Shown in pieces: positions 3,073 to 34,137 of a stretch of DNA of 36,726 nucleotides. Each line of letters opens with the position of its first letter. The first letter of the stretch is position 1. The DNA comes from Bacteroidales bacterium (GTDB lineage Bacteria > Bacteroidota > Bacteroidia > Bacteroidales > F082), in contig JAFZXP010000054.1 of NCBI GenBank assembly GCA_017616735.1, forward strand, positions 1 through 36,726, given 5' to 3'. A program made the translations under genes and the position numbers. The notes beneath the pieces were generated by a model that was given only the letters and a program-made list of their open reading frames with translations, was not told where the DNA came from and did no database searches.

Positions 3073-3103
3073 ATTTTTCAAATTTAACACATTATGCGAA
3101 GCG

Positions 3104-4297
3104 TCACATTTTTATATCGTATTCCTTGATTTTCCTATAAAGCGTGCGTTCGCTGATGCCGAGTTCGTTGGCGGCGTCTTTGCGTTTGCCGTTGTGCTTG
3201 CGCAAAGCCTTGCAAATCACCTCGTTTTCCTTGTCTTGCAACGACAGGCTGTCGGCGGTTGCCTTGTCCTGCAGATACTCAACCTCCACATCCTGTGTGT
3301 TGTCGTATTCCACCATATGCTCATGCTGCGATGGATTGAGTACCGTGGCGTTGATAGGCGTCGCGGTAGGAATCTTGCCTGATGTCAGCTCGTCGACTGT
3401 CTTGCGCAGCTCGGTTATGTCTTTGCGCATATCGAACAGCACCTTGTACAGCAGGTCGCGTTCCGATATCGAGTCGGCTTTGCTTTCGTCCTTGAAAATG
3501 GCCGGCAAAACGGTCTGCACAGGCAGATAGTTTTTCAAAATGTCAGGTGTTATCAGACGATCAGGCTCGATGATTGAAATCTGTTCGGTAACGTTTTTCA
3601 GCTGGCGGATGTTGCCGTCCCAACGGTATTCCTCGAGCATGGTGAGGGCTTCACGTGTCAGTTGAATGGCCGGGATGTGGTATTTTTCGGCAAAGTCTGA
3701 CGCAAACTTGCGGAACAGAAGCTTGATGTCTTCCTTTCGCTCGCGCAGTGCCGGAATGTGAATCGGGACAGTGTTCAAGCGGTAATAGAGGTCTTCGCGG
3801 AAGCGACCTTTCTCGATGGCAACAGGAATATTGAGATTGGTTGCAGCCACCACGCGCACGTTGGTTTTTTGTATTTTCGACGAACCCACTTTGATGAATT
3901 CACCGTTTTCCAAAACTCTTAGCAAGCGAGCCTGTGTGGCAAGAGGCAACTCGCCCACCTCATCGAGGAAGAGAGTGCCGCCGTCAGCCACCTCAAAATA
4001 ACCTTTGCGGGTGTCGTAAGCTCCTGTGAATGAACCCTTTTCGTGACCAAAAAGCTCCGAGTCGATGGTTCCTTCGGGAATGGCTCCGCAGTTAATGGCG
4101 AAGTAAGGACCATGTTTGCGGCTGCTGTTCTGGTGAATTATCTGCGGAAACACGTCTTTACCAGTGCCACTCTCGCCATTGATGAAAACGGTCAGGTCGG
4201 TGGCGGCTACTTGCACTGCCACTTCGATGGCGCGATTCAGGCTCGGGTCGTTGCCGATGATACCAAAACGTTGTTTTATGACTTGGATATCTGTCAT
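3104..4297 (-). CDS. Sigma-54-dependent activator without sensor domain
   Basis: AAA+ ATPase that remodels sigma-54 RNA polymerase at promoters. The 397-residue product starts almost directly with the AAA+ core: Walker A GESGTGKD (41-48), the sigma-54 contact loop GSFTGA (88-93), Walker B LFLDE (D112, E113), arginine-finger region (RFREDLYYRLN), and a C-terminal Fis-type helix-turn-helix (about 362-397, with DAANELGISERTLYRKIKEY). There is no receiver, PAS or GAF domain, so activity may be set by its amount or by a partner. Its ATG overlaps the pheT stop (ATGA), implying translational coupling. A linker of about 100 residues (270-360) precedes the HTH. Target genes cannot be told from this window. 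Confidence 0.93.
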   Translation of the reverse strand: MTDIQVIKQRFGIIGNDPSLNRAIEVAVQVAATDLTVFINGESGTGKDVFPQIIHQNSSRKHGPYFAINCGAIPEGTIDSELFGHEKGSFTGAYDTRKGYFEVADGGTLFLDEVGELPLATQARLLRVLENGEFIKVGSSKIQKTNVRVVAATNLNIPVAIEKGRFREDLYYRLNTVPIHIPALRERKEDIKLLFRKFASDFAEKYHIPAIQLTREALTMLEEYRWDGNIRQLKNVTEQISIIEPDRLITPDILKNYLPVQTVLPAIFKDESKADSISERDLLYKVLFDMRKDITELRKTVDELTSGKIPTATPINATVLNPSQHEHMVEYDNTQDVEVEYLQDKATADSLSLQDKENEVICKALRKHNGKRKDAANELGISERTLYRKIKEYDIKM

Positions 4298-16919: not shown

Positions 16920-18341
16920 TTAGAAGATTCCAGGAATTCTTATCCATTCGCGTGCTTCAGCGCAGGTTCTCTCAACGTCTTCCACGGTCTTCGGAATCGG
17001 TTTGCCCAAGATGCGGTTGCCTGTCTCGGTGATGAGGAGGTCGTCTTCGATGCGGATGCCGCCAAAGTCCTTGAATGACTCGAGTTTGTCGTAGTTGATG
17101 AAATCCTTATGTTTTCCTTCGGCTTTCCAGATGTCGATCAAGGTCGGGATGAAATAGATGCCTGGCTCGTCGGTTACCACGAAGCCCGGTTTCAGTACCT
17201 TGCCGCAGCGGAGGCAACTGAAGCCCTGTTGTGTTGAGCGTGGAGTCTCTTTGTTGTAGCCCACGTTGACTTCACCGAGGCCTTCCATGTCGTGCACATC
17301 CATGCCGAGCATATGACCGAGGCCGTGAGGCTGGAACAGATAATGCGCGCCGGCTGCCAACGCGTCGTCGACGTTGCCTTTCATCAAGCCTATGCCTTGC
17401 AATCCTTCGATGAGGGTGCGGGCGGCGAGCTTGTGCATCTCCATGTAACGGATGCCCGGCTTGGTCTGTTTTGCCACTTCCATGTTGGCTTTCAGCACGA
17501 TTTCGTAAACGTCACGTTGACGGCTGTTGAACTTGCCGCCCACAGGTGTGGTGCGTGTGAAGTCGCTGTCCAGATAGTTGCCTGTCTCGGCACCGCAGTC
17601 GCAAACCATCATGCGGCCTTCTTTCAAAACGCCGCCGTGGTTGTGGTTGTGCAAGGTCTGGCCGTCCATGCTGACGATATTAGGGAACGATACTATGCCG
17701 CCGCGAGCGATGGCGATGCCTTCGATGGTGCCACTGATCTCTTGTTCGATGACGCCCGGCTTACACATCTTCATGGCTGTGGTGTGCATGTAATAAGCGG
17801 TGTCGGCAGCATATTCCATCTCCTTAATTTCGATGTCGCTCTTAATCTCACGTAAGCTCACGATGGCTTCAATCAAAAGCTGGCTGACGTAATTTTTCAC
17901 CTCGCTGGTGCAGATGTCCATGTAGTTGGCGATTTTTATGGTCTGATCGCCACGATAGGTAGGGGTAAGGTGAATCATGCGGCCTTTCTCCATCATCTGG
18001 CGGATGTATTCCGGGAAGCGGTTGATGTCGCGGCAGTCTTTGATGCCGATCATATCGCCTTGCTCAGGCAACGACGGCAGCGGACCGCACCAGATCACAT
18101 CGTCGATTGTGACTTCCTGGCCGAAGAGGATTTCTTCGCCCGACTCGAAGTCGATAACGCCGACCAGATCAGGGTGATTCAATCCGAAGAAATATGCGAA
18201 GTTGCTGTCCTGACGATAATGATAGGTGTTGTCAGGGTAGTTCATCGATGCCTCATCGTTCGCCACAAACACCGCAATGCCTTTATTCATCAGCTTTTTC
18301 AGGGCCGCTCTGTTTTTAACATAGAAATCTTTATTAAACAT
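16920..18341 (-). CDS. M24 family Xaa-Pro aminopeptidase
   Basis: A 473-residue cytoplasmic metallopeptidase of the pita-bread (M24B) family, which removes N-terminal residues next to proline. The N-terminal creatinase-like domain (MNYPDNTYHYRQDSNFAYFF) precedes the catalytic domain. The metal ligands are visible in MVCDCGAETGNYLDSDFTRT (two Asp), HGLGHMLGMDVHD (His), TDEPGIYFIP (Glu) and GGIRIEDDLLI (Glu). No signal peptide. It is upstream of, and coupled to, the Kelch/AraC regulator. A second M24 protein is encoded at 25562-26836; the two are only distantly alike. Confidence 0.93.
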   Translation of the reverse strand: MFNKDFYVKNRAALKKLMNKGIAVFVANDEASMNYPDNTYHYRQDSNFAYFFGLNHPDLVGVIDFESGEEILFGQEVTIDDVIWCGPLPSLPEQGDMIGIKDCRDINRFPEYIRQMMEKGRMIHLTPTYRGDQTIKIANYMDICTSEVKNYVSQLLIEAIVSLREIKSDIEIKEMEYAADTAYYMHTTAMKMCKPGVIEQEISGTIEGIAIARGGIVSFPNIVSMDGQTLHNHNHGGVLKEGRMMVCDCGAETGNYLDSDFTRTTPVGGKFNSRQRDVYEIVLKANMEVAKQTKPGIRYMEMHKLAARTLIEGLQGIGLMKGNVDDALAAGAHYLFQPHGLGHMLGMDVHDMEGLGEVNVGYNKETPRSTQQGFSCLRCGKVLKPGFVVTDEPGIYFIPTLIDIWKAEGKHKDFINYDKLESFKDFGGIRIEDDLLITETGNRILGKPIPKTVEDVERTCAEAREWIRIPGIF

Positions 18342-24486: not shown

Positions 24487-25218
24487 TTAAAAGTTCCATT
24501 TGATGCCCAAGGCCGGAGCTACGTTGAATCCTTTGTTGTCGCCGAAGTTTTTGCGCCAGCTGCCGGTGAAGTTGTAAGCAAGTTCAATTTCGCCTCCGAC
24601 AAAGAGATGCTCGCAGTTGAAGAATTTGCCGACGTTGTACCAAATCTGAGGTTCGCTGATGGCGACAACCTTGGTTTCTTCTGTGCCTTCATCTGTAGTC
24701 CATGTGGTTTTTTGTCCCCAAACATCAACAAAGCCGCTGAATACCAGACCGTTGACTCCGAAGATGTTGTTCATACCCCATACAAAGGTGAACTGCAGCG
24801 GGATGTAATCGTCCTGACCGGCAATCCATTTGTACATCAACTCAAAAGTGAAGGTGTTGCTGTAGTCGTCGTTGTGCAGCAGGTATTCGGCACCGAACAA
24901 CCAAGCGTTGTTAATGAGAAAACCGTTGCCCAAGCCGCCGTTCCACTCTACGTGTGCGCTTAAGGCTTCGAGTTTGCTGCCTTTCCAGAAGTTAAGGCCA
25001 CGGGCAATTTCGGTGTAGTATTCTGTAGGGCCGGAATAATCGAAAGGATGATAGATATCAGTGAAGAAGAAGGTGCTTCCCCAGTTGTCGGCCTTGAACA
25101 TCTCGAGGGTTGTGGTTAACTGCTCACGATTGAAATCGTACTGTTCCTGAATGTTGACTTGTGCGTTGGCACAGAATGCTGTAGCGACGAAAGCTACAAT
25201 GAATAAAAATTTTTTCAT
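24487..25218 (-). CDS. DUF5020 / Tsx-like outer-membrane channel
   Basis: A 243-residue exported protein with signal peptide MKKFLFIVAFVATAFCANAQ and alternating beta strands ending in KWNF, as expected for a small outer-membrane barrel. Motifs such as STFFFTDIYHP, WNGGLGNGFLINNAWLFGAE and PLQFTFVWGMNNIFG match the DUF5020 family, which is related to the nucleoside-specific channel Tsx. It lies directly upstream of a purine permease, fitting a route for purines or nucleosides across both membranes. Its 5' leader carries copy A of the palindromic element, 48 bases before the ATG. Confidence 0.85.
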   Translation of the reverse strand: MKKFLFIVAFVATAFCANAQVNIQEQYDFNREQLTTTLEMFKADNWGSTFFFTDIYHPFDYSGPTEYYTEIARGLNFWKGSKLEALSAHVEWNGGLGNGFLINNAWLFGAEYLLHNDDYSNTFTFELMYKWIAGQDDYIPLQFTFVWGMNNIFGVNGLVFSGFVDVWGQKTTWTTDEGTEETKVVAISEPQIWYNVGKFFNCEHLFVGGEIELAYNFTGSWRKNFGDNKGFNVAPALGIKWNF

Positions 25219-25266: not shown

Positions 25267-25349
25267 GACTTCAAACTATGCAAAGCCTCACTTCAGGGTA
25301 AGCCCTTGAGGTCTTACATTCGTGATGCCTTGCATAGTTTTCCGTCTTT
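25267..25349 (-). repeat. Palindromic element, copy A
   Basis: An 83-base imperfect palindrome. In the sense of the minus-strand genes it starts AAAGACGGAAAACTATGC and ends GCATAGTTTGAAGTC. Outer arms AAACTATGCAA and TTGCATAGTTT pair perfectly, then GGC.TCAC pairs with GTGA.GCT, and the tip is GTAAG..CTTAC. It lies in the leader of the DUF5020 gene. Confidence 0.9.
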
Positions 25350-25420
25350 ATAAACTTCAATAATTTAAACTGTTAAACTTCAATAACCTATAAACTATAA
25401 CCTATAAACATTTCTAATTC

Positions 25421-25504
25421 GACTCCAAACTATGCAAAGCCTCACTTCAGGGTAAGCCCTTGAGGTCTTACATTCGTGATGCTTTCGCATAGTTTTCCGT
25501 CTTT
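25421..25504 (-). repeat. Palindromic element, copy B
   Basis: An 84-base copy in the same orientation as copy A, 71 bases away. Sense: AAAGACGGAAAACTATGCGA at one end and GCATAGTTTGGAGTC at the other. The tip reads GTAAG-A-CC-TCAA-GG-G-CTTAC. A conserved flank TATTGAAGTTATG precedes the element, as at copy C. Confidence 0.9.
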
Positions 25505-25575
25505 CATAACTTCAATACTTTATAACTTTATAACTTTTAACTTTCAACTCTCAATTTTCAACTACTCTAAACTTT
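25505..25575 (-). repeat. Heptamer-type tract overlapping the M24 peptidase stop
   Basis: On the minus strand: GTTGAAA, GTTTAGA, GTAGTTG, later GTTGAAA, GTTAAAA, GTTATAA. The last codons and stop (TAG at 25562-25564) of the peptidase lie within it. An 18-base stretch GTTTAGAGTAGTTGAAAA is identical to plus-strand 32390-32407. Confidence 0.75.
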
Positions 25576-26836
25576 CAACTTCAATAGCCAGATCGCCGAA
25601 CAGATTAATAGGATCGCCGTCAGTGATCAGCAGGTCATCTTCGAGTCGGATGCCGATTCCTTCCTCGCGAATGTAAAGCCCTGGCTCGCATGTCAGAATC
25701 ATTCCCGGTGCGAAAGGCTCGTATTTGTCGAGATTGTCGTGGCAGTCCAAACCGACGTGGTGCGACATGCCGTGCATGAGATATTTGCGGTATAACGGCC
25801 TTTCAGGGTCTTGATTTTTGGCGTCTTCCTCGGTGAAGAGCCCGAGCTTGATCATCTCTTTTTCCATCAGCTGATAGGTGGTCTGATTGATTTTGTCAAT
25901 CGTGCCGCCGATTTTGTAGAGCTTGGTGATTTCTTTCTTCACTCGCAAAACTGCTTCGTAGCACTCTTTCTGACGCGGGGTGAACTTGCCGTTGATAGGG
26001 ATGGTGCGGCTCAAATCGGAAGCGTAGTTTTGGTATTCACAGCCCATGTCGAAGAGCAGCAACTCGTTGTCGTTCAATATGCTGTCGTTCTTGGAATAAT
26101 GCAGACAGCAGGCGTTTTTGCCGCCGGCCACAATAGGGTGGAAGGCGTGACCCGAGGCGTTGTTCATCTTGAAGATGTATTCCATCTCGGCCTGCATCTC
26201 GTACTCGTAACGTCCGGGCTTCACAGTCTTCATGCAATGCAAGAAGGCCTTGCCGGTGATGTCGCAGGCGTGTTTGATGATCTCAATTTCTTCAGGCGAT
26301 TTTATCTTGCGCAGTTTGTTCAAAATCGGAGCCGAGCGGTCGAAAGTGTGGAGCGGATACTGGCTCATGATTTCCTTGACGAAACGCTCTTGTATGGTGA
26401 CGACTTTTGTCTCGAAACGTGAGTATTCGTAAAGGTTGAGATACACTTTTGAACTGCTGAGTATCAACTCGCGCAGCACGTCGTTGAAGCTGTCGGCGTA
26501 CATCACATTGTCGCAGCCCGAGATTTCCTTGGCCTGTGCGGCATCGAGCATCTCGCCTCGCCAGATGGCTTTGGTTTCGCTGTAAGGCTCGATGAACAGT
26601 ATCTCGCGCATCTCGGGTTTGGGATGGTCGGGATATAGTATAAGGTAAGCGCCTTCACGGTCTATTCCCGTGAGGTAGAAGAAATCGGAGTTCTGACGGA
26701 AAGGATAGCACTGGTCGCCGTTGCGGGGCATCTCCTCGTTTGCTGTAAATACAGCAAGAGCGCCTTTTGTCATCATTGAGGCGAAATTCCTGCGGTTTCT
26801 GACAAAAAGCGCCTTGGGTATAATATTTGTAGACAT
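25562..26836 (-). CDS. Second M24 family Xaa-Pro aminopeptidase
   Basis: A 424-residue cytoplasmic metallopeptidase. The AMP_N domain is at the N-terminus (GDQCYPFRQNSDFFYLTGID); the catalytic domain carries the metal ligands in LLFDMGCEYQNYASDLSRT (two Asp), HGMSHHVGLDCHD (His), TCEPGLYIREEG (Glu) and GIRLEDDLLI (Glu). The layout is close to E. coli PepP. Its C-terminus ends VESLE, encoded by a heptamer-like repeat that continues past the stop, so the original end may have been replaced. It is 4 bases downstream of the PorT-like gene and co-transcribed with it. Confidence 0.93.
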   Translation of the reverse strand: MSTNIIPKALFVRNRRNFASMMTKGALAVFTANEEMPRNGDQCYPFRQNSDFFYLTGIDREGAYLILYPDHPKPEMREILFIEPYSETKAIWRGEMLDAAQAKEISGCDNVMYADSFNDVLRELILSSSKVYLNLYEYSRFETKVVTIQERFVKEIMSQYPLHTFDRSAPILNKLRKIKSPEEIEIIKHACDITGKAFLHCMKTVKPGRYEYEMQAEMEYIFKMNNASGHAFHPIVAGGKNACCLHYSKNDSILNDNELLLFDMGCEYQNYASDLSRTIPINGKFTPRQKECYEAVLRVKKEITKLYKIGGTIDKINQTTYQLMEKEMIKLGLFTEEDAKNQDPERPLYRKYLMHGMSHHVGLDCHDNLDKYEPFAPGMILTCEPGLYIREEGIGIRLEDDLLITDGDPINLFGDLAIEVESLE

Positions 26837-26840
26837 GAAC

Positions 26841-27488
26841 TTACAGTCCTAAGCTAACGAGTTTAACGCCAAGTGTCACAGTGAAGATGCTCTCCTTGGT
26901 GCTGTCGAGATGGAAGTCTTGTCCTGAGATGGTGACGTCGTCCTTGTCAAAGAGATTGGTCAAGCCGAAACTGTAGTTGATGTCGAGGGTGAACAGAAAC
27001 ACATCGATGCCGAGGCCTAAAGCACCGCCCCATGTCAGGTTGTTGGCTTCAACATCCAACGATTGGTTGTTCTGGTCGCATTTGCCATTCTGGTCGACCA
27101 CGAAATACATCACCGGGCCGACACTGGCTCTGAATTTAACCAGCTTCAGGTCAAGGAACTGGTAACCGACCAAAATCGGCAATGCCAAATTCTGCTGGCT
27201 CATGGTGAGACTAGGATCGAAATCGAGGAGGTCGGTGCCGTCGAGGTTGAAAATCTGACCGCTCTTGAACCAAAGAAGTTCAGGCTGAATCATGATATTC
27301 TTGAATGTGACACGGCCGAAAATACCAATTGTGAAATGTTCCGAGAATCCTGATTGGATGTCGGCTTTATTTAATGACAAATTAGCGGTCTGATAGCCTA
27401 ATTTCGGTCCAAAATGGAATCCGACACCTTCTGCTCTTGCCACATTGGCGAAAAGAACAACTGCCAAAACGAGTAATAATTTTTTCAT
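26841..27488 (-). CDS. PorT-family outer-membrane beta-barrel protein
   Basis: A 215-residue exported protein (signal peptide MKKLLLVLAVVLFANVARAE) with the OMP_b-brl-2/PorT layout: GVGFHFGPKLGYQTANLSLN, amphipathic strands such as HFTIGIFGRVTFKNIMIQPE, KFRASVGPVMYFV and WGGALGLGIDVFLFTLDINY, and a C-terminal strand (FTVTLGVKLVSLGL). It is first in a two-gene operon with the second M24 peptidase and faces another PorT-like gene divergently. Members range from T9SS accessory proteins to general porins; the role here is unknown. Confidence 0.82.
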   Translation of the reverse strand: MKKLLLVLAVVLFANVARAEGVGFHFGPKLGYQTANLSLNKADIQSGFSEHFTIGIFGRVTFKNIMIQPELLWFKSGQIFNLDGTDLLDFDPSLTMSQQNLALPILVGYQFLDLKLVKFRASVGPVMYFVVDQNGKCDQNNQSLDVEANNLTWGGALGLGIDVFLFTLDINYSFGLTNLFDKDDVTISGQDFHLDSTKESIFTVTLGVKLVSLGL

Positions 27489-27498
27489 GATATAAATT

Positions 27499-27527
27499 TT
27501 TGTGATTGTTATTTTTTATTATTTTTG
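27499..27527 (+). promoter_or_regulatory. Promoter of the plus-strand PorT-like operon
   Basis: TTTG (27499-27502) and a perfect -7 TATTTTTG (27520-27527), with a 17-base spacer, slightly shorter than the usual 19. It lies 36 bases upstream of the ATG in the divergent 74-base gap. Confidence 0.5.
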
Positions 27528-27562
27528 CAAAGATATTTAAAATTGTAAAACGAACAGCAAAA

Positions 27563-28195
27563 ATGATGAAAAAATTTTACCTACTGATAGTTGCGATGGT
27601 GCTTTGCCTTGGTGCCAACGCCCAACGTTTCGAGTATCAACTTGGCCTTAAAGGAGGTGCAGGTCTCGATTGGATCCGTTCTATAAAAGAGGATTATTCG
27701 AGCAAAGACAACGGCTTCTGCTACAAATTCGGTTTGACGGCCATTTACAATTTTGGTGAGAATTACGGCTTGAACACCGGATTCAATGTGCTCGGCAGCA
27801 AGTTCGCATACACTGTGAAAGTGAATGACGATGAAACTTTTATTGAATCAGAAGATAAAAACGACTTCAGAGCCACCTATTGCCAGATTCCGTTGCTGTT
27901 GAAGATGCGTACCGATGCATTCGGATCGGGATTGCGCTTCTTTGGCGAGATTGGCTATGGATTCAACATTCTGGTTGAAGGCCAATATTCACAGAACGGC
28001 ATTAAAAAGGCGACTCCTTTCCGCGATGTGTGCAGCTCGTTCATTGTGCATCTCGGCTTGGAAAAAGAGGTGCTCAACCGCAGTGCGCTGCAATTTATAA
28101 TCGGATACGACAATTTCTTCTCAAGCATGATGACCATGAAGGAGAGCAAGCTTTCTATCAGTAATCTTTGCTTTGAGCTAGGATTCTTATTCTAA
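27563..28195 (+). CDS. PorT-family outer-membrane beta-barrel protein
   Basis: About 210 residues. The frame is open from 27506, but the leader MMKKFYLLIVAMVLCLGANA at 27563 is a clear signal peptide and the upstream part overlaps the promoter; a second ATG at 27566 is equally good. The mature part follows the PorT pattern: FEYQLGLKGGAGLDWI, YGLNTGFNVLGSKFAY, FRATYCQIPLLLKMRT and LRFFGEIGYGFNILVEGQYS, ending in ISNLCFELGFLF. Its stop overlaps the ATG of the next gene by one base (TAATG), so the two are translated together. Similar in type, though not closely, to the divergent gene at 26841-27488. Confidence 0.82.
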   Translation: MMKKFYLLIVAMVLCLGANAQRFEYQLGLKGGAGLDWIRSIKEDYSSKDNGFCYKFGLTAIYNFGENYGLNTGFNVLGSKFAYTVKVNDDETFIESEDKNDFRATYCQIPLLLKMRTDAFGSGLRFFGEIGYGFNILVEGQYSQNGIKKATPFRDVCSSFIVHLGLEKEVLNRSALQFIIGYDNFFSSMMTMKESKLSISNLCFELGFLF

Positions 28196-28977
28196 TGAAA
28201 ATCACTTTGGCGCAGATTGAGTGTGTTGCCGGCGATGTTGAAGGCAACACCTCGAAAATAATAGAGGCGGCTCAAAAGGCTAAAGCCTCTTCTTTGGTTA
28301 TTTTCCCGGAATTGGCTGTTTCAGGCCCGAATCCTGTTGCATGTTTTAAAAATGACGGCTTTGCCGAACAATGCGAGAAGGCTCTCGACCGCATAGCCAA
28401 AGAATGCGAAACCATACCTGTTTTGGTGGGATGCCCGGTCAGAAACACCACGGGCAGTGGCAAACCTTGGTTCAATGCGGCGGTTTACATGTTTCAAGGG
28501 CAGCGTAACGTGTTCAAAAAGAAATATTTGTCGGATGCCGAAAAGGAGATTTTCGAGCCGTCGGATGAAGACGCTCTGCTGCAAATCGGCTGTCACAAAT
28601 ATGCTGTGACAATCGGTCAGGACCTGGCCAATACCAGCGGTGACGATTTTCTGATTGTCAATCGCATAGATGAACTGATGCCGCTTAAACCCGATGTGAT
28701 AATAAATATCGGTGCCGAAAAATGCGGAGTCAGGACATCGGAGCGTCGACGCAACGACATGCGCATGAATGTTCTGAAAACCGAGCTGCCGCTGGTGTTT
28801 GTCAACAATGTGGCACCAAAAAAAGAAGCCACCTATGACGGCGGCTCAATGATATTCGGATACGAAAGTTATGTTGTGGCTTCCGCTGATTTCTTCACCG
28901 AAGATGTGAAAGATGTCAACCTTGAGTGTCTTATTTCAATGAGTCATGTCGACAAGCAGGAAGATTACACCTTATAA
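28195..28977 (+). CDS. Nitrilase-superfamily protein lacking the catalytic Cys (NadE-glutaminase-like)
   Basis: A 260-residue cytoplasmic protein that aligns with the N-terminal glutaminase domain of glutamine-dependent NAD+ synthetase: MKITLAQIECVAGDVEGNTS, LVIFPELAVSGPNP, VLVGCPVR, KPWFNAAVYMFQGQRNVFKK, EIFEPSDED and TYDGGSMIFGYES. Of the Glu-Lys-Cys triad, Glu39 (FPEL) and the Lys of KKKYL (about 109) are present, but the place of the Cys (usually ICED) reads TIGQD, with Gly141. It is therefore likely unable to form the thioester. No synthetase domain is attached. It might be a structural or regulatory subunit. It is coupled to the PorT-like gene and overlaps the phosphorylase tail to tail. 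Confidence 0.82.
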   Translation: MKITLAQIECVAGDVEGNTSKIIEAAQKAKASSLVIFPELAVSGPNPVACFKNDGFAEQCEKALDRIAKECETIPVLVGCPVRNTTGSGKPWFNAAVYMFQGQRNVFKKKYLSDAEKEIFEPSDEDALLQIGCHKYAVTIGQDLANTSGDDFLIVNRIDELMPLKPDVIINIGAEKCGVRTSERRRNDMRMNVLKTELPLVFVNNVAPKKEATYDGGSMIFGYESYVVASADFFTEDVKDVNLECLISMSHVDKQEDYTL

Positions 28978-29847
28978 CCTTTCCAAGGTAGTCTTAATCA
29001 GTTTCTCAACGTAAGGATGATAGTCGGTGGCGAAAGTCTCGCTGACTCGGTTTGCCACTGCCACGCAGATTGTCAGGCAGTTGTGACCCAGCATCTTGCC
29101 TAGGCTGAACAGTGCCGACGACTCCATTTCGAAGTTGCAGACTTTCCATCCGTTGAACTGGAATTTTTCGATATCCGGGTTGATTTTCGGATAGGTGAGT
29201 TCCATGCGGAGCGAACGTCCCTGAGGCCCGTAAAATCCCGGCGAGGTGGCTGTTATGCCATGATGATATCCGACTGCAAGACGGTCGAACAGTTCTTTGG
29301 AGCATTCAACGGCATAAGGCTTCGGAAGGTCGGTGGGGTAGTGCATGTCGCGGATAAAGGCGTCGGTCATGGGCTTGTCAATCACCTCGGTGTGCTCCTT
29401 GTAAAAATAGGCCAAACCATCCAAACCGATGGCATAACGTGAGGCGACATAGCTGTCCTCGACGCCTATTTCCGGCTGCAGCGCGCCGCAGGTGCCCAGG
29501 CGCACCAGATTCAGAGTGCGATGCTCTTTCTTAGGGGTGCGGGTCTGGAAGTCGATGTTGGCAACCGCGTCAAGCTCGTTGACGACGATGTCGATGTTGT
29601 CGGTGCCCATGCCGGTTGACAAGGCCGTGATGCGCTTGCCTTTGTAAGTGCCGGTATGCGTGACCAGCTCACGGTTCTGACGTTTGTATTCTATGGTGTC
29701 GAAGTTGGCCGAAACCATGGCGACACGTCCCGGATCGCCTACCAGAATCACGTTGTCGGCAAGCATTTCCGGAAACAGATTCAAGTGATATATTGCGCCC
29801 TCGCTGTTGAAAACCAGCTGTGAGCCTGGAATGGGTTTGGTATTCAT
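28972..29847 (-). CDS. Nucleoside phosphorylase, uridine phosphorylase type
   Basis: A 291-residue cytoplasmic enzyme that splits nucleosides (probably uridine) with phosphate into base and ribose-1-phosphate. Start at the ATG 29847 (MNTKPIPGSQLVFNSEG); the frame extends to a GTG at 29898 but that part is AT-rich leader. Family motifs: VILVGDPGRVAMVS (phosphate binding), TALSTGMGTDNIDIVVNELD, NLVRLGTCGALQ and NFEMESSALFSLG (ribose/metal-site Glu region). It overlaps the plus-strand nitrilase-like gene by 6 bases at the shared sequence TTATAA. It is the only minus-strand gene between 27.5 and 36.3 kb. A purine specificity cannot be excluded. Confidence 0.9.
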   Translation of the reverse strand: MNTKPIPGSQLVFNSEGAIYHLNLFPEMLADNVILVGDPGRVAMVSANFDTIEYKRQNRELVTHTGTYKGKRITALSTGMGTDNIDIVVNELDAVANIDFQTRTPKKEHRTLNLVRLGTCGALQPEIGVEDSYVASRYAIGLDGLAYFYKEHTEVIDKPMTDAFIRDMHYPTDLPKPYAVECSKELFDRLAVGYHHGITATSPGFYGPQGRSLRMELTYPKINPDIEKFQFNGWKVCNFEMESSALFSLGKMLGHNCLTICVAVANRVSETFATDYHPYVEKLIKTTLERL

Positions 29848-29920
29848 ATCTTGTCGAAATGTTAAAAATTTTTTACAAAAGTAGTCAAAATTCCGCACAT
29901 TGTGTTAAAAAATGTTAAAA

Positions 29921-29953
29921 TTGAACTTTGTAAAATATTAATGTTTAACTTTG
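29921..29953 (+). promoter_or_regulatory. Putative cinA promoter
   Basis: A perfect -7 motif TAACTTTG (29946-29953) with TTG at 29921-29923, 22 bases upstream; an alternative TTTG at 29927-29930 is only 15 bases away. It lies 56 bases before the cinA ATG. Confidence 0.45.
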
Positions 29954-30009
29954 TGACGTTTTACAACTGTCATTTCAAAACAAACACGGGTCTGTAAAGA
30001 TAATATAAT

Positions 30010-31257
30010 ATGAAAAGAGACAACGATTTTGTGAAGGCCAAACTGATTTCGATTGGCGACGAGCTGCTTATTGGTCAAGTGGTGAACACTAATGCCGCAT
30101 GGCTTGGAAATATATTGACAACCAATGGAATAGAGGTGATATCAACCCTGACTATAGGCGATGGCGAACAGGATATTGTCGAAGCATTGGACGCCTGTTC
30201 GGATGTCGACATCATAGTGATGACAGGTGGATTGGGACCAACAGCCGACGATATAACCAAGCCGACTTTGTGCAAGTATTTCAACACCGAGCTGGAGTTC
30301 TGTCAGGATGCCTACGACAACGTGATGAGCATTTTTACCAAACGCGGCTATCAGATGACCGAGCGCAACCGTGGTCAGGCCTACATTCCGAAGTCGTGTA
30401 CCTATATTCCGAACCGTTACGGAACAGCGCCATGCATGTGGTTTGAAAAAGGCAAGTCGGTGTTTATCTCGATGCCGGGTGTGCCTTTCGAGATGAAAAA
30501 CGTGTTCGAGCAGGAGATACTGCCAAAGCTGCTCAAACATTTCAAGATTACGCCGTATATTAATAAGGTGGTGATGACCACTGGAGTCGGCGAGTCGTTT
30601 TTGGCCGACAAAATCAAGGATTGGGAGGATTCGTTGCCTGGTTTCTTATCGCTGGCATATTTGCCGCAATACGGAATGGTCCGTCTCCGTCTGGAAGGCC
30701 GTCATCCCGACAGGGAATTTTTGCAGAAAACCATAGACGAAAAAATCCATCAGTTGCAAAGCCTGATTGGGGAGTTTATTTTCGGATATGACGAGAAACC
30801 CATTGCTGAAGTTGTCTTGGAGAAACTCAAGGCGGCTGGGGCGACTTTGTCGTCGGCCGAGAGCTGCACGGGCGGTACTATAGCCAAGCTTATAACGGCT
30901 ATTCCAGGCAGTTCGGATGTGTTCAAGGGCACGGTGGTATCATATGCGACCGAAGTGAAGGAAATCCTGCTCGGAGTGAAACACGAGGATGTTGCGAAGT
31001 ATACTGTTGTAAGTCAGCAAGTTGCTGAGCAGATGGCCACAGGGGTGAGATCGTTGTTGAAAACCGACTATGCTGTGGCTACGACAGGAGTGGCAGGCCC
31101 TGGCGGTGGCACAGACGAAAATCCTGTAGGCACAGTGTGGATTGCGGTGGCCGGTCCAAAAGGTGTTGTCTCGAAGCGGTGCAATTTCGGCAACGACAGA
31201 GGTAACAACATCGAACGCGCTTCAATCACTGCGTTGGAGATGCTGAGAAAGTACTAG
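30010..31257 (+). CDS. cinA: CinA: competence/damage-inducible protein with NMN deamidase domain
   Basis: A 415-residue cytoplasmic protein with both CinA parts. Residues about 10-180 form a molybdopterin-binding-like (MoCF) domain with KLISIGDELLIGQVVNTN and MTGGLGPTADDITK; COG1058 members act on ADP-ribose. Residues about 265-415 form the PncC nicotinamide-nucleotide amidohydrolase domain with SSAESCTGGTIAKLITAIPG and TTGVAGPGGGTDENPVGTVW. It likely recycles NMN and repairs NAD by-products. Its stop TAG flows straight into a 7-bp repeat tract. gldB and comM follow on the same strand. Confidence 0.94.
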   Translation: MKRDNDFVKAKLISIGDELLIGQVVNTNAAWLGNILTTNGIEVISTLTIGDGEQDIVEALDACSDVDIIVMTGGLGPTADDITKPTLCKYFNTELEFCQDAYDNVMSIFTKRGYQMTERNRGQAYIPKSCTYIPNRYGTAPCMWFEKGKSVFISMPGVPFEMKNVFEQEILPKLLKHFKITPYINKVVMTTGVGESFLADKIKDWEDSLPGFLSLAYLPQYGMVRLRLEGRHPDREFLQKTIDEKIHQLQSLIGEFIFGYDEKPIAEVVLEKLKAAGATLSSAESCTGGTIAKLITAIPGSSDVFKGTVVSYATEVKEILLGVKHEDVAKYTVVSQQVAEQMATGVRSLLKTDYAVATTGVAGPGGGTDENPVGTVWIAVAGPKGVVSKRCNFGNDRGNNIERASITALEMLRKY

Positions 31258-31305
31258 TTGAGAGTTGACAGTTAGAAGTTGACAGTTAGAAGTTGACAGT
31301 TTAAA
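31257..31305 (+). repeat. Heptamer repeat tract starting in the cinA stop codon
   Basis: Seven heptamers, all GTTnnnA: GTTGAGA, GTTGACA, GTTAGAA, GTTGACA, GTTAGAA, GTTGACA, GTTTAAA. The first G is the last base of the cinA stop TAG. The tract runs to within 25 bases of the gldB ATG. Confidence 0.9.
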
Positions 31306-31329
31306 GAGTTTAAGAATTTTAAAGTGAAT

Positions 31330-32337
31330 ATGTCTGGAATTATTAAGATAATCGGGTTTTTTATCATATCAACTGCATTGCTCTCTTGTTCTGAATCAAG
31401 CGGATACAAGAAACGATTGAGCATTCCATACAAAAACATGGAGCCGCAGACTGTTGAGATTATTGAATACAATAAGGCTCTGTTTGCGATAGATACCGCC
31501 GATTTTGAAGCCGGGCTTAAGGCATTGGCGCCTCGGTTTAAGCCACTGCTTGGCGACACTCTGAATGAGGATTTTGTGATGTATCTGAAAGAATTTGTTA
31601 CCGACACTTTTATATTGAAAATCAATAGTTTGGTAAATGAAACCTTTCCTGATATCGAGGCTGTGGCCAAAGATGTGAAATACGTGTATCAGCATGTCAA
31701 ATACTATTATCCTGAGTATACAATTCCGACAACTTACAGCTATGTCTCGGGAATATATCACGACAAACCGCATCTTATCAACGACGATTACATACTGTTG
31801 GGCCTGGATTTTTATCTGAGCAACAAGGATTATGTTTACGACAGAATAGGGTTCCCAAGGTATATGTCGCGCCGTTGCCAGCCGGCCTATCTGACGAGGG
31901 ATTTAGCTGAGGCATTTTATAATAGCTTCATAACCAAGCAGATAAATCAGAAAAACGTATTGGCCGAAATGGTTGAGCATGGCAAGAAACTGTATTTTGT
32001 CGAGGCCATGGACCCGAGACTGCAAGATTCGGTGATTATGGGCTATTCGTCAAGCCAGATGCAGTGGGCCAGGGATAATGAGGGTGAAGTGTGGGCTTCG
32101 GTGGTTGGCAACGAGATGCTTTATGCCAATAACTACGACAGCAAACGTCTGCTGTTCGGCGACGGGCCGTTCACCGCTCCTTTTGGCGATGAGGCGCCGG
32201 CACGTTTGGGTGAATACTTGGGATTGCAAATCGTACGGTCGTTCATGTCGAACAATGATGTGACTTTGACGGAGTTGATGAATGTGACTGATTGTCAAGA
32301 TGTTTTGCAGAGGTCGCAATATAAACCTCGGAAGTGA
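31330..32337 (+). CDS. gldB: GldB-family gliding-motility lipoprotein
   Basis: A 335-residue envelope lipoprotein. The ATG at 31330 gives the signal MSGIIKIIGFFIISTALLSC with Cys20 as lipidation site; a GTG at 31324 is an alternative. The GldB pattern is clear: ALAPRFKPLLGDTLNEDFVM, TTYSYVSGIYHDKPHLINDD, ILLGLDFYLSNKDYVYDRIG, PRYMSRRCQPAYLTRDLAEA. GldB belongs to the set of genes for gliding or for T9SS in Bacteroidota; many non-gliding Bacteroidales keep it. Its last three codons and stop lie inside a half copy of the palindromic element, so the C-terminus has been remodelled or the element landed there. Confidence 0.88.
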   Translation: MSGIIKIIGFFIISTALLSCSESSGYKKRLSIPYKNMEPQTVEIIEYNKALFAIDTADFEAGLKALAPRFKPLLGDTLNEDFVMYLKEFVTDTFILKINSLVNETFPDIEAVAKDVKYVYQHVKYYYPEYTIPTTYSYVSGIYHDKPHLINDDYILLGLDFYLSNKDYVYDRIGFPRYMSRRCQPAYLTRDLAEAFYNSFITKQINQKNVLAEMVEHGKKLYFVEAMDPRLQDSVIMGYSSSQMQWARDNEGEVWASVVGNEMLYANNYDSKRLLFGDGPFTAPFGDEAPARLGEYLGLQIVRSFMSNNDVTLTELMNVTDCQDVLQRSQYKPRK

Positions 32338-32358
32338 GGCTTCGCATAGTTTGGAGTC
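32331..32358 (+). repeat. Half copy (D) of the palindromic element
   Basis: Twenty-eight bases identical to the 3' half of copy C (32536-32563), ending GCATAGTTTGGAGTC. The left arm is absent. The gldB stop (TGA, 32335-32337) lies inside it. Confidence 0.9.
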
Positions 32359-32368
32359 ATAAGATAAA

Positions 32369-32396
32369 GTTTAGAGTTTAAAGTTTAGAGTTTAGA
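32369..32396 (+). repeat. Heptamer repeat tract (GTTTAGA)
   Basis: Four heptamers: GTTTAGA, GTTTAAA, GTTTAGA, GTTTAGA, then GTAGTTGAAAA. The end is identical over 18 bases to the tract at the 3' end of the M24 peptidase gene (25555-25572, opposite strand). Confidence 0.9.
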
Positions 32397-32412
32397 GTAG
32401 TTGAAAAAGTAG

Positions 32413-32432
32413 AGACGGTCGGTCGACCGTCT
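32413..32432. repeat. Short perfect hairpin, 9-bp arms
   Basis: AGACGGTCG and CGACCGTCT around a GT loop, between the heptamer tract and copy C. No T run follows, so it is not a typical terminator; possibly a transcript-processing or insertion scar. Confidence 0.7.
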
Positions 32433-32479
32433 AAAGTTGAAGAGTTTATAAGTGTAAATGTTATAAGTATTGAAGTATG

Positions 32480-32563
32480 AAAGACGGAAAACTATGCGAA
32501 AGCATCACGAATGTGAAGCCGTAAGGATTCACCCTGAAGTGAGGCTTCGCATAGTTTGGAGTC
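32480..32563 (+). repeat. Palindromic element, copy C
   Basis: An 84-base copy, sense on the plus strand, starting AAAGACGGAAAACTATGCGA. Outer arms AAACTATGCGAA / TTCGCATAGTTT pair over 12 bp; the tip is GTGAA-G-CC-GTAA-GG-A-TTCAC. It lies 41 bases before the comM ATG. It differs from copies A/B mainly by paired changes. Confidence 0.92.
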
Positions 32564-32604: not shown

Positions 32605-34137
32605 ATGTTGGTAAAAACTTATGGAAGTGCCTTAAATGGCATTGATGCAATTACAGTTACAATTGAGGTCAACAGTGACCGTGGAGTTCAATTTTTTCTT
32701 GTTGGACTGCCTGACAGCGCAGTGAAGGAGAGCCAGCAGCGCATAGAATCGGCATTGAATAACAACGGCTTGAAATACCCTAAACGCAAGATTACCATAA
32801 ACATGGCCCCCGCTGACATACGAAAAGAAGGCTCAAGTTACGACCTGCCTTTGGCCGTTGCCATATTGGCGGCTACAGAACAGGTTAACCCTGAAAGACT
32901 CGATAAATATGTGATAATGGGTGAGCTTTCGTTGGACGGAGGCATCAATCCGATTAAGGGAGCCCTGCCGATAGCAATCAGAGCGGCCGAAGAAGGTTTC
33001 AAGGGCGTGATTGTGCCCAAAGATAATGCCAATGAAGCCGCAGTTGTGGAGAATATAGACGTTTACGGCGTTGAAACGCTTATGGATGTCGTAAACTTTT
33101 TCAATGGTGTTCAGGGTTTGGAACCTGTTAAGTTGAATCAGGAGGAGGAAATAGGCAATGATTTTTACGACTTTGACTTCGCCGATGTCCGTGGGCAGGA
33201 AGGCATTAAAAGAGCTTTGGAAGTGGCTGCGGCCGGATCGCATAACGTGATTCTCATAGGCCCTCCAGGTAGCGGCAAGACAATGCTGGCCAAGCGTTTG
33301 CCCACGATTTTGCCTCCGATGACCTTGAAGGAATCGCTCGAAACCACAAAGATTCATTCGGTGGTGGGAATGCTGGGCCATGGTGTCTCGTTGATGCGTA
33401 CACGACCATTTAGAAATCCGCATCACACAACGTCGTACGTCGGTTTGGTCGGCGGCGGCACCTATCCGCAGCCCGGAGAGATTTCACTTGCGCACAATGG
33501 AGTTCTCTTTCTTGACGAGTTGCCGGAATTCAAGCGTTCGGCGTTGGAAGTGCTGCGTCAGCCGATGGAAGACAGGAAAGTGACCATAGCCCGTGCCAGG
33601 CAAACGGTTGAGTTTCCGGCCAATTTCATGTTGGTGGCGGCAATGAATCCTTGTCCATGTGGCTATTACAATCATCCGACCAAGGAATGCACCTGCAAAC
33701 CTGGGCAGGTTGAAACTTATCTCTCGAGGATTTCTGGTCCGTTGCTCGACCGCATTGACTTGCATATCGAGACGTTTCCGATATCTTATGATGAGTTGGC
33801 GCAGAAAAAAGCGGGGGAGAGGAGTGCCGATGTGCGCGAGCGCGTTATCAAAGCCCGCATGATTCAGGTGCAGCGTTTCGCTGATGTCCCTGATATACAT
33901 TGCAATGCGCAGATGACTCCGAAAATGATTCAGAAGTATTGTGACCTTGACCAACAGTGCGGTTTGTTGTTGAAAAACGCCATGGAACGCCTTGGTTTAT
34001 CGGCTCGTGCCCGCGACAGGATTTTAAAAGTTTCGCGCACCATTGCCGACTTGGCCGGTTCCGAAAAAATCAAGCCCGAGCATCTGGCCGAGGCCATTCA
34101 ATACCGCAGTTTGGATAGAGACAGCTGGGGGAAATAA
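32605..34137 (+). CDS. comM: YifB/ComM-family Mg-chelatase-like AAA+ ATPase
   Basis: A 510-residue cytoplasmic ATPase. ComM is a branch-migration helicase that helps integrate DNA during transformation. It has the N-terminal ChlI-like domain ([40 protein letters not shown]), Walker A GPPGSGKT (219-226), Walker [11 protein letters not shown] (300-309), the family block [15 protein letters not shown] with a Cys-rich zinc-like stretch (CPCG..., CTC), and the C-terminal domain with [20 protein letters not shown]. Full length. Its leader carries palindromic element copy C. cinA, two genes upstream, is also competence-linked in some bacteria. Confidence 0.95.

Follow-up and report, generated by a model that had tools for sequence, protein, structure and literature searches.

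The 36,726-nt contig JAFZXP010000054.1 of a Bacteroidales bacterium (GTDB family-level lineage F082; assembly GCA_017616735.1), hereafter the window, carries three copies of a repeat ~80 bp long that is non-coding, dispersed, and imperfectly palindromic. These copies are of type I, and types I and II form one branch of a superfamily that also includes a type III found in sister species. The element is dispersed in its genome, shows common ends with two different interiors and paired changes in its arms, and lies in sense orientation after genes. On this basis it is, on balance, probably a clade-specific repeat resembling the repetitive extragenic palindromic (REP) and enterobacterial repetitive intergenic consensus (ERIC) sequences, which would be transcribed with the upstream gene and act as an mRNA hairpin.

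Coordinates of the copies are given in the element orientation, that is, read from the GACGG end. Copy A (25267..25346, minus strand, 80 nt, GACGG...GAAGTC) and copy B (25421..25501, minus strand, 81 nt) are arranged head-to-tail, and copy C (32483..32563, plus strand) is 81 nt long. All three match the covariance model R1, copy A with an E value of 1.0e-18, R1 having been built partly from this copy. A first-pass annotation made from the sequence alone had reported three copies at these places, each forming a long hairpin, and both statements hold. Folded as RNA, the two strands of copies A, B, and C reach -29.6 to -35.6 kcal/mol (z of -5.5 to -7.9), and for each strand none of 200 dinucleotide shuffles folds as well. 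The outer-stem pattern, with up to 3 mismatches allowed, has 6 matches in the window compared to 0.08 expected; one of them (3089-3107) lies outside any copy and is probably due to chance. As the annotation pointed out, two apical pairs are swapped and the A-G mismatch is flipped to G-A; both pairs also vary across the family. In the 19 type I rows, columns 34-49 show GC in 13, AU in 3, and GU in 1, and columns 36-47 show GC in 12, AU in 4, and GU in 2. The outer stem does change from GCAA/TTGC to GCGAA/TTCGC, but the proposed clean division between copies A/B and copy C is not found, because copy B is an intermediate whose GCGAA arm faces a TTTGC arm, giving a G-U pair. The suggested GNRA apical loop is not a feature of the family, being present at the tip of 13 of the 40 type I copies.

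The home genome (G000; 2,079,695 bases in 78 contigs, 80.5% complete) was searched in several ways. BLAST with copy C plus its flanks gave 67 matches, and palindromes of the form ACTATGC-N38-66-GCATAGT occur 71 times, compared to 0 for the reversed-pattern control. Covariance models place the family at no fewer than 78 positions (at least 43 of type I and at least 35 of type II), so that further copies, whose scarcity would have spoken against the first-pass annotation, are not few. These counts are lower bounds, obtained by scoring the best 47 first-look candidates and removing opposite-strand duplicates (4 of type I and 11 of type II), with the weakest ones (e.g., C74:4728 and C43:4770) left unread. 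Type I, the kind present in the window, has an interior with a TCAC/GTGA mid stem, and type II has GCAGGC/GCCTGC; these two interiors are set on nearly identical ends with few end variants. The inverted repeats at both termini read GAC(GG/TCC)AAACTATGC. In the fetched home stretches, the both-end pattern gives 70 matches (40 type I and 30 type II), which form 39 clusters, and the length is 79-82 nt across 70 home copies of types I and II.

Type III combines variable arms with a nearly fixed core, AAAAAATCAGGCCTTGC…CAGACTGATTTTT; part of this common core reflects ascertainment, as the type III copies were found via the type II model. Searches of 99 genomes of the genus, with 47-48 candidates scored per genome, gave R1 matches in 9 and R2 matches in 18, some of which are cross-matches to type III. 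The model R3, built from 27 type III copies and used at an E value of 1e-4 or better, matches 20 of the 99 genomes and also cross-matches types I and II. Every genome with a NadD identity to the query of 86% or more (18 genomes) is among these 20; G035 and G103, which complete the set, have no NadD match, and no R3 match was found in genomes with NadD of 80% identity or less. Because R3 matches coincide with this NadD boundary, the family appears to be clade-limited within the genus, and as far as tested the superfamily corresponds to one NadD-defined clade. Outside the genus, BLAST against 24 genomes from this order gave no match. An exact-end scan of named genomes returned five stretches in four metagenome-assembled genomes of Bacteroidales, of which two came from water buffalo gut. 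Hairpins resembling type III, AAAAATCAGTCTGG…CCTGATTTTTT, were also seen near contig starts (L275-L281, first 600 bases) in G099, G107 (two contigs), G005, G032, G117, and G122. In G122, a 16S rRNA gene start identified by Rfam lies just beyond the hairpin, and such hairpins may insulate rRNA operons.

The covariation of the arms, for which the annotation had proposed a test, exceeds shuffled and slid controls in types I and III and is weaker in type II. The type I model contains 25 pairs in 80 positions, with 96.4% of cells paired and double changes at 8 pairs, compared to 2.2 in shuffles (0 of 500 reach 8) and at most 1 in slid versions. In type III, 93.9% of cells are paired, and double changes involve 16 pairs and 66 cells, compared to 7.7 and 15.5 in shuffles and no more than 9 pairs and 18 cells in slid versions. 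Type I also has conserved unequal internal loops, and changes in flanking pairs leave the core columns untouched. The paired changes had been taken as a sign of selection on the structure; the covariation is real, but such changes are not by themselves proof of selection, because an arm can also be rewritten from its partner when the template switches within a palindrome. The persistence of mismatches and unequal loops speaks against simple arm-copying, as an argument and not as a proof.

The position and direction of the elements were examined against long open reading frame (ORF) calls, which are not curated annotation. All 23 multi-element clusters are uniform and head-to-tail. Among the 37 clusters with neighbours on both sides, 30 lie on the same strand as both genes; the upstream neighbour shares the strand of the element in 33 of 38 cases (binomial p 4e-6) and the downstream neighbour in 34 of 38 (binomial p 6e-7). 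In six clusters the start lies 0 or 1 nt past a stop codon, and a seventh cluster overlaps the stop by one base, while the remaining clusters start up to ~150 nt past the stop, rarely further. A pure replication-strand effect is disfavoured because contigs C22, C48, and C52 hold elements in both orientations, each usually matching the local gene direction. For type III, 48 fetched copies were examined, of which 7 lie within ORFs of a crude caller and 41 could be classified by gap type (28 tandem, 12 convergent, and 1 divergent). The upstream gene is on the same strand in 34 of these 41, and 25 of the 34 copies lie within 17 nt of its stop. Between the two identities offered by the annotation, a structured RNA or an actively moved REP-like element, sense orientation and post-gene position favour the RNA.

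The mechanism that we propose starts from transcription of the element together with the upstream gene. The transcript would fold into a stable hairpin in the mRNA, which could act at the 3′ end or between cistrons, either shielding the upstream message or weakly insulating the two cistrons. REP and ERIC elements are thought to act in a similar way as mRNA hairpins. With A-runs and T-runs in their core, type III copies may double as two-way intrinsic terminators. The elements presumably spread within genomes and build local head-to-tail arrays.

Several observations weigh against this proposal. Two of the 37 home clusters are opposite to both neighbours, 3 of 39 (C2, C47, and C53) overlap a long-ORF call, and 6 of the 41 type III copies oppose both neighbours. 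By eye, a type I copy of G122 near a gene that we take to encode superoxide dismutase is antisense to that gene. Copies in the home genome are partly recent duplicates, so that the counts are not independent. In type II, double changes are modest, with 3 pairs, a number reached by 11 of 500 shuffles; in addition, the rows that were counted had also served to compute the structures of types I and II, and the type III structure was drawn by us, which favours these structures over the slid versions. Scoring of intrinsic terminators, which covered the type I elements of the window, gave no call at these elements, and the calls overall numbered 8, compared to 8.7 in shuffles.

Junctions equivalent to those occupied by the family were compared in sister species. 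A search with NadD gave 94 matches in 93 genomes, and the loci of 30 genomes were fetched (18 of the clade and 12 outside). At the junction between nadD and a gene that is presumably yicC, the family is present in five clade genomes, as type I in G000 and G015 and as type II in G065, G032, and G117. At the same junction (L167-L195), 11 clade genomes have inverted 7-nt-periodic arrays that form long hairpins (lag-7 autocorrelation of 0.49-0.79), several of them mutually related, and short palindromes of the GTAGGGACG and AGAGACGCG types occur in G083 and G078. Unrelated hairpins thus occupy the same junction in sister species. Outside the clade, 7 of the 12 genomes have no insert, the stop and start codons touching or overlapping, 4 have inserts with z of -2.2 to -5.1, and parsing failed for 1.

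The idea that every junction carries a hairpin was considered and rejected. Within the clade, z is below -3 in 17 of 18 genomes at yicC-nadD (the exception being G090 with -2.4), but at each of the two window junctions only 7 of 18 are below -3, with 7 longer but weakly folded and 4 short; the A/B junction segments include a few variable C-terminal codons. At the A/B junction (L224, L227, L234, and L237), G026, G005, G035, and G078 carry long palindromes of the form GTCATTTCGA…TCGAAATGAC, a motif that presumably also occurs in many environmental genomes. Of 46 control gaps of 60-160 nt between co-directional genes, 13 show z below -3, or 9 of 42 after exclusion of two nadD junctions (L201 and L202) and two diverged family elements (L220 and L078); hairpin-bearing gaps are common in these genomes. 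It is conceivable, though we consider it rather doubtful, that selection at certain clade junctions maintains a hairpin directly behind the stop codon regardless of its sequence, with unrelated repeat families interchanging. Types I and II, the inverted heptad arrays, and the GTAGGGACG- and AGAGACGCG-type palindromes would then be interchangeable suppliers, and the window element would be one of them. We treat such selection as a hypothesis because background gaps are rich in hairpins, the sister species do not count as independent, and it was the presence of family elements that drew attention to the nadD site.

At the site of the presumed superoxide dismutase gene, inspection by eye showed two type II copies in G000 and the type I copy of G122 in opposite orientation. 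At this site, G065 (L150, ~1501-1537) has a 37-nt palindrome upstream of the gene that consists of the arms only, the interior having been lost.

Rfam has 0 matches in the window, in agreement with the earlier statement that no named family was recognised; against types I, II, and III, Rfam gives only matches to unrelated families, far below gathering scores. No description of the element was found in a literature search whose reach did not extend to most subscription papers. Collectively, the Rfam and literature searches indicate that the repeat superfamily is apparently undescribed. ERIC, RU, and YPAL repeats are medium-length imperfect palindromes in intergenic DNA that have been proposed to be transcribed. 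The element resembles them in length, imperfect symmetry, and location, set side by side by description and not by sequence, whereas they belong to another phylum and the element has two interiors on common ends. REP sequences and bacterial interspersed mosaic elements are described in PMC3733652 as dispersed extragenic palindromes located mostly after coding regions, between co-directional or convergent genes. The element is likewise dispersed and post-gene, and one of its ends reads CGTC on the complementary strand, but it is 80 bp long compared to 20-40 bp for REPs, and it forms head-to-tail arrays, which according to the same paper are absent or under-represented for GTAG repeats and negligible for CGTC repeats. 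In place of the 20-40 bp GTAG-tagged palindrome and the repeat-bracketed Y1 transposase (REP-associated tyrosine transposase, RAYT) of GTAG REPs, the element has 80 bp with GAC ends, and no such transposase was found in the incomplete home assembly. CGTC repeats, which that paper reports also in Bacteroidetes and without a dedicated transposase, have an 8-9 bp stem and a 4-5 nt loop in ~20-40 bp, unlike the 25 pairs in 80 positions of the element, despite CGTC at one end. As far as sequence can tell, the superfamily would work like transcribed hairpins of the REP or ERIC type, yet lacks defining features of GTAG and CGTC REPs, and no mobiliser is known for it. Among Bacteroidales, the BrickBuilt element of Porphyromonas gingivalis, a miniature inverted-repeat transposable element (MITE), also combines inverted and tandem repeats but holds a minisatellite, in a comparison by description and not by sequence (PMC4596501). 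TAACTGA heptamers, as outlined in PMC4679880, are intergenic direct 7-nt repeats that lie mostly just before start codons and are present in some Bacteroidetes as well; the yicC-nadD heptads of sister species are also 7 nt long and between genes, but are inverted and fold into hairpins.

Mobility was addressed through transposase, parent element, and target site. No match to Y1 transposase (PF01797) was found in the home assembly, which is 80.5% complete; this transposase is present in 70 of the 99 genus genomes and absent from 12 of the 20 R3-positive ones. R1, R2, and R3 gave 0 matches in seven loci around Y1 genes of five sister species, a set without the Y1 loci of G099, G011, and G103. 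Mobilisation by a RAYT was rejected on these two grounds. Right after the Y1 genes in L201 (~3570-3620) and L205 (~3545-3580), a short GC-rich palindrome, GCGTGCC…GGCACGC, was seen by eye; it is GTAG-tagged in L205 and represents a repeat distinct from that of the window. Genome-wide, 72 of 72 left ends with at most 1 mismatch belong to 80-bp elements, as matched by eye to model places, and therefore no longer parent with the same ends is present in the incomplete home assembly. No constant target-site duplication was seen by eye in the flanks, and the flanks of filled and empty sites in relatives are too divergent for a comparison. The active movement suggested by the annotation is thus half supported, the element being dispersed and REP-like in habit, with no link to a transposase, target duplication, or parent element found. 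Arm homogenisation within arrays was also considered, being striking in C63 and C44, and rejected: among 17 pairs of different type within clusters, arm sharing is found at the right end in 4 (p 0.85) and is marginal at the left end, in 13 (p 0.046).

These data bear on whether the repeat is a selfish MITE-like DNA element, whose ends (GAC..AAACTATGC) are acted on by a transposase and whose hairpin and orientation are by-products, insertions elsewhere having been purged. Terminal inverted repeats, a length confined to 79-82 bp across 70 copies, the expansion seen in the home species, and two interiors on the same ends are as such an element would have them. However, the Y1 class, the only one searched, is missing at home and in the 12 R3-positive genomes, no autonomous parent accompanies the 72 left ends in the incomplete assembly, no constant target duplication was seen, and viral, plasmid, and phage collections gave no match to type I DNA or exact ends, and we consider this explanation unlikely.

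A regulatory structured RNA or protein-binding site, with a dedicated factor reading the conserved core and linking many genes as a regulon, appears more improbable still. The nearly invariant type III core within compensating arms, the conserved unequal loops of type I, and the type III-like hairpins near rRNA operon starts would fit it, but the core is not the same in every type, and its constancy among type III copies is partly ascertainment. The genes adjoining the elements in the window, the only neighbours annotated, have no evident common theme, and sister species bear unrelated hairpins at the same junctions. Least probable of all is a purely mutational origin, in which template-switch repair keeps the palindrome arms matched without selection. 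It could account for the coordinated exchange of G-C for A-T that array C63 shows in each of its three elements, the left-arm variant also occurring once in C61, and for the arms-only remnant in G065. Mismatches and unequal loops, however, persist or flip from A-G to G-A without becoming perfect, core columns are fixed while flanking pairs change, and the arm sharing between types, not significant at one end and marginal at the other, does not favour it. The transcribed mRNA hairpin is accordingly the reading that we prefer.

The surroundings of the copies in the window can be described as follows. On the minus strand, copies B and A lie between an aminopeptidase P (M24) gene upstream (25562..26836) and a DUF5020 protein gene downstream (24487..25218); an AT-rich repeat segment (25502..25561) separates the former gene from copy B, and an AT-rich linker (25347..25420) separates the two copies. 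The ORFs 16920-18341 and 25562-26836 share stretches of 36 and 48 nt that are 83% and 71% alike, and they are perhaps two aminopeptidase P-like paralogues. On the plus strand, copy C follows a GldB-like lipoprotein gene (31324..32337) and precedes an ATPase gene (32605..34137) of the Mg-chelatase/ComM-like kind, a label that we assume. A half copy (32331..32358, plus strand), which the annotation had not listed and which holds the 3′ arm only, is identical to copy C at 28 of 28 positions, and the TGA at 32335-32337 within it terminates the gldB-like ORF upstream. It looks as if a deletion or recombination had fused the coding end to the element. Between the half copy and copy C lies an AT-rich linker with 7-nt periodicity (32359..32482, plus strand; lag-7 autocorrelation of 0.49 over 32359-32478), which includes a short perfect hairpin, AGACGGTCGGTCGACCGTCT (32413..32432, no strand assigned), unrelated to the element. 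This hairpin also occurs at the A/B junction of G117 and G070, with a one-base variant in G107.

The repeat adds a structured superfamily to a poorly studied group of gut bacteria. Moreover, sister species with unrelated hairpins at a common junction constitute a natural experiment in which selection on the fold and selection on the sequence could be compared, and the repeat bears on the long-standing question of what REP-like repeats do.

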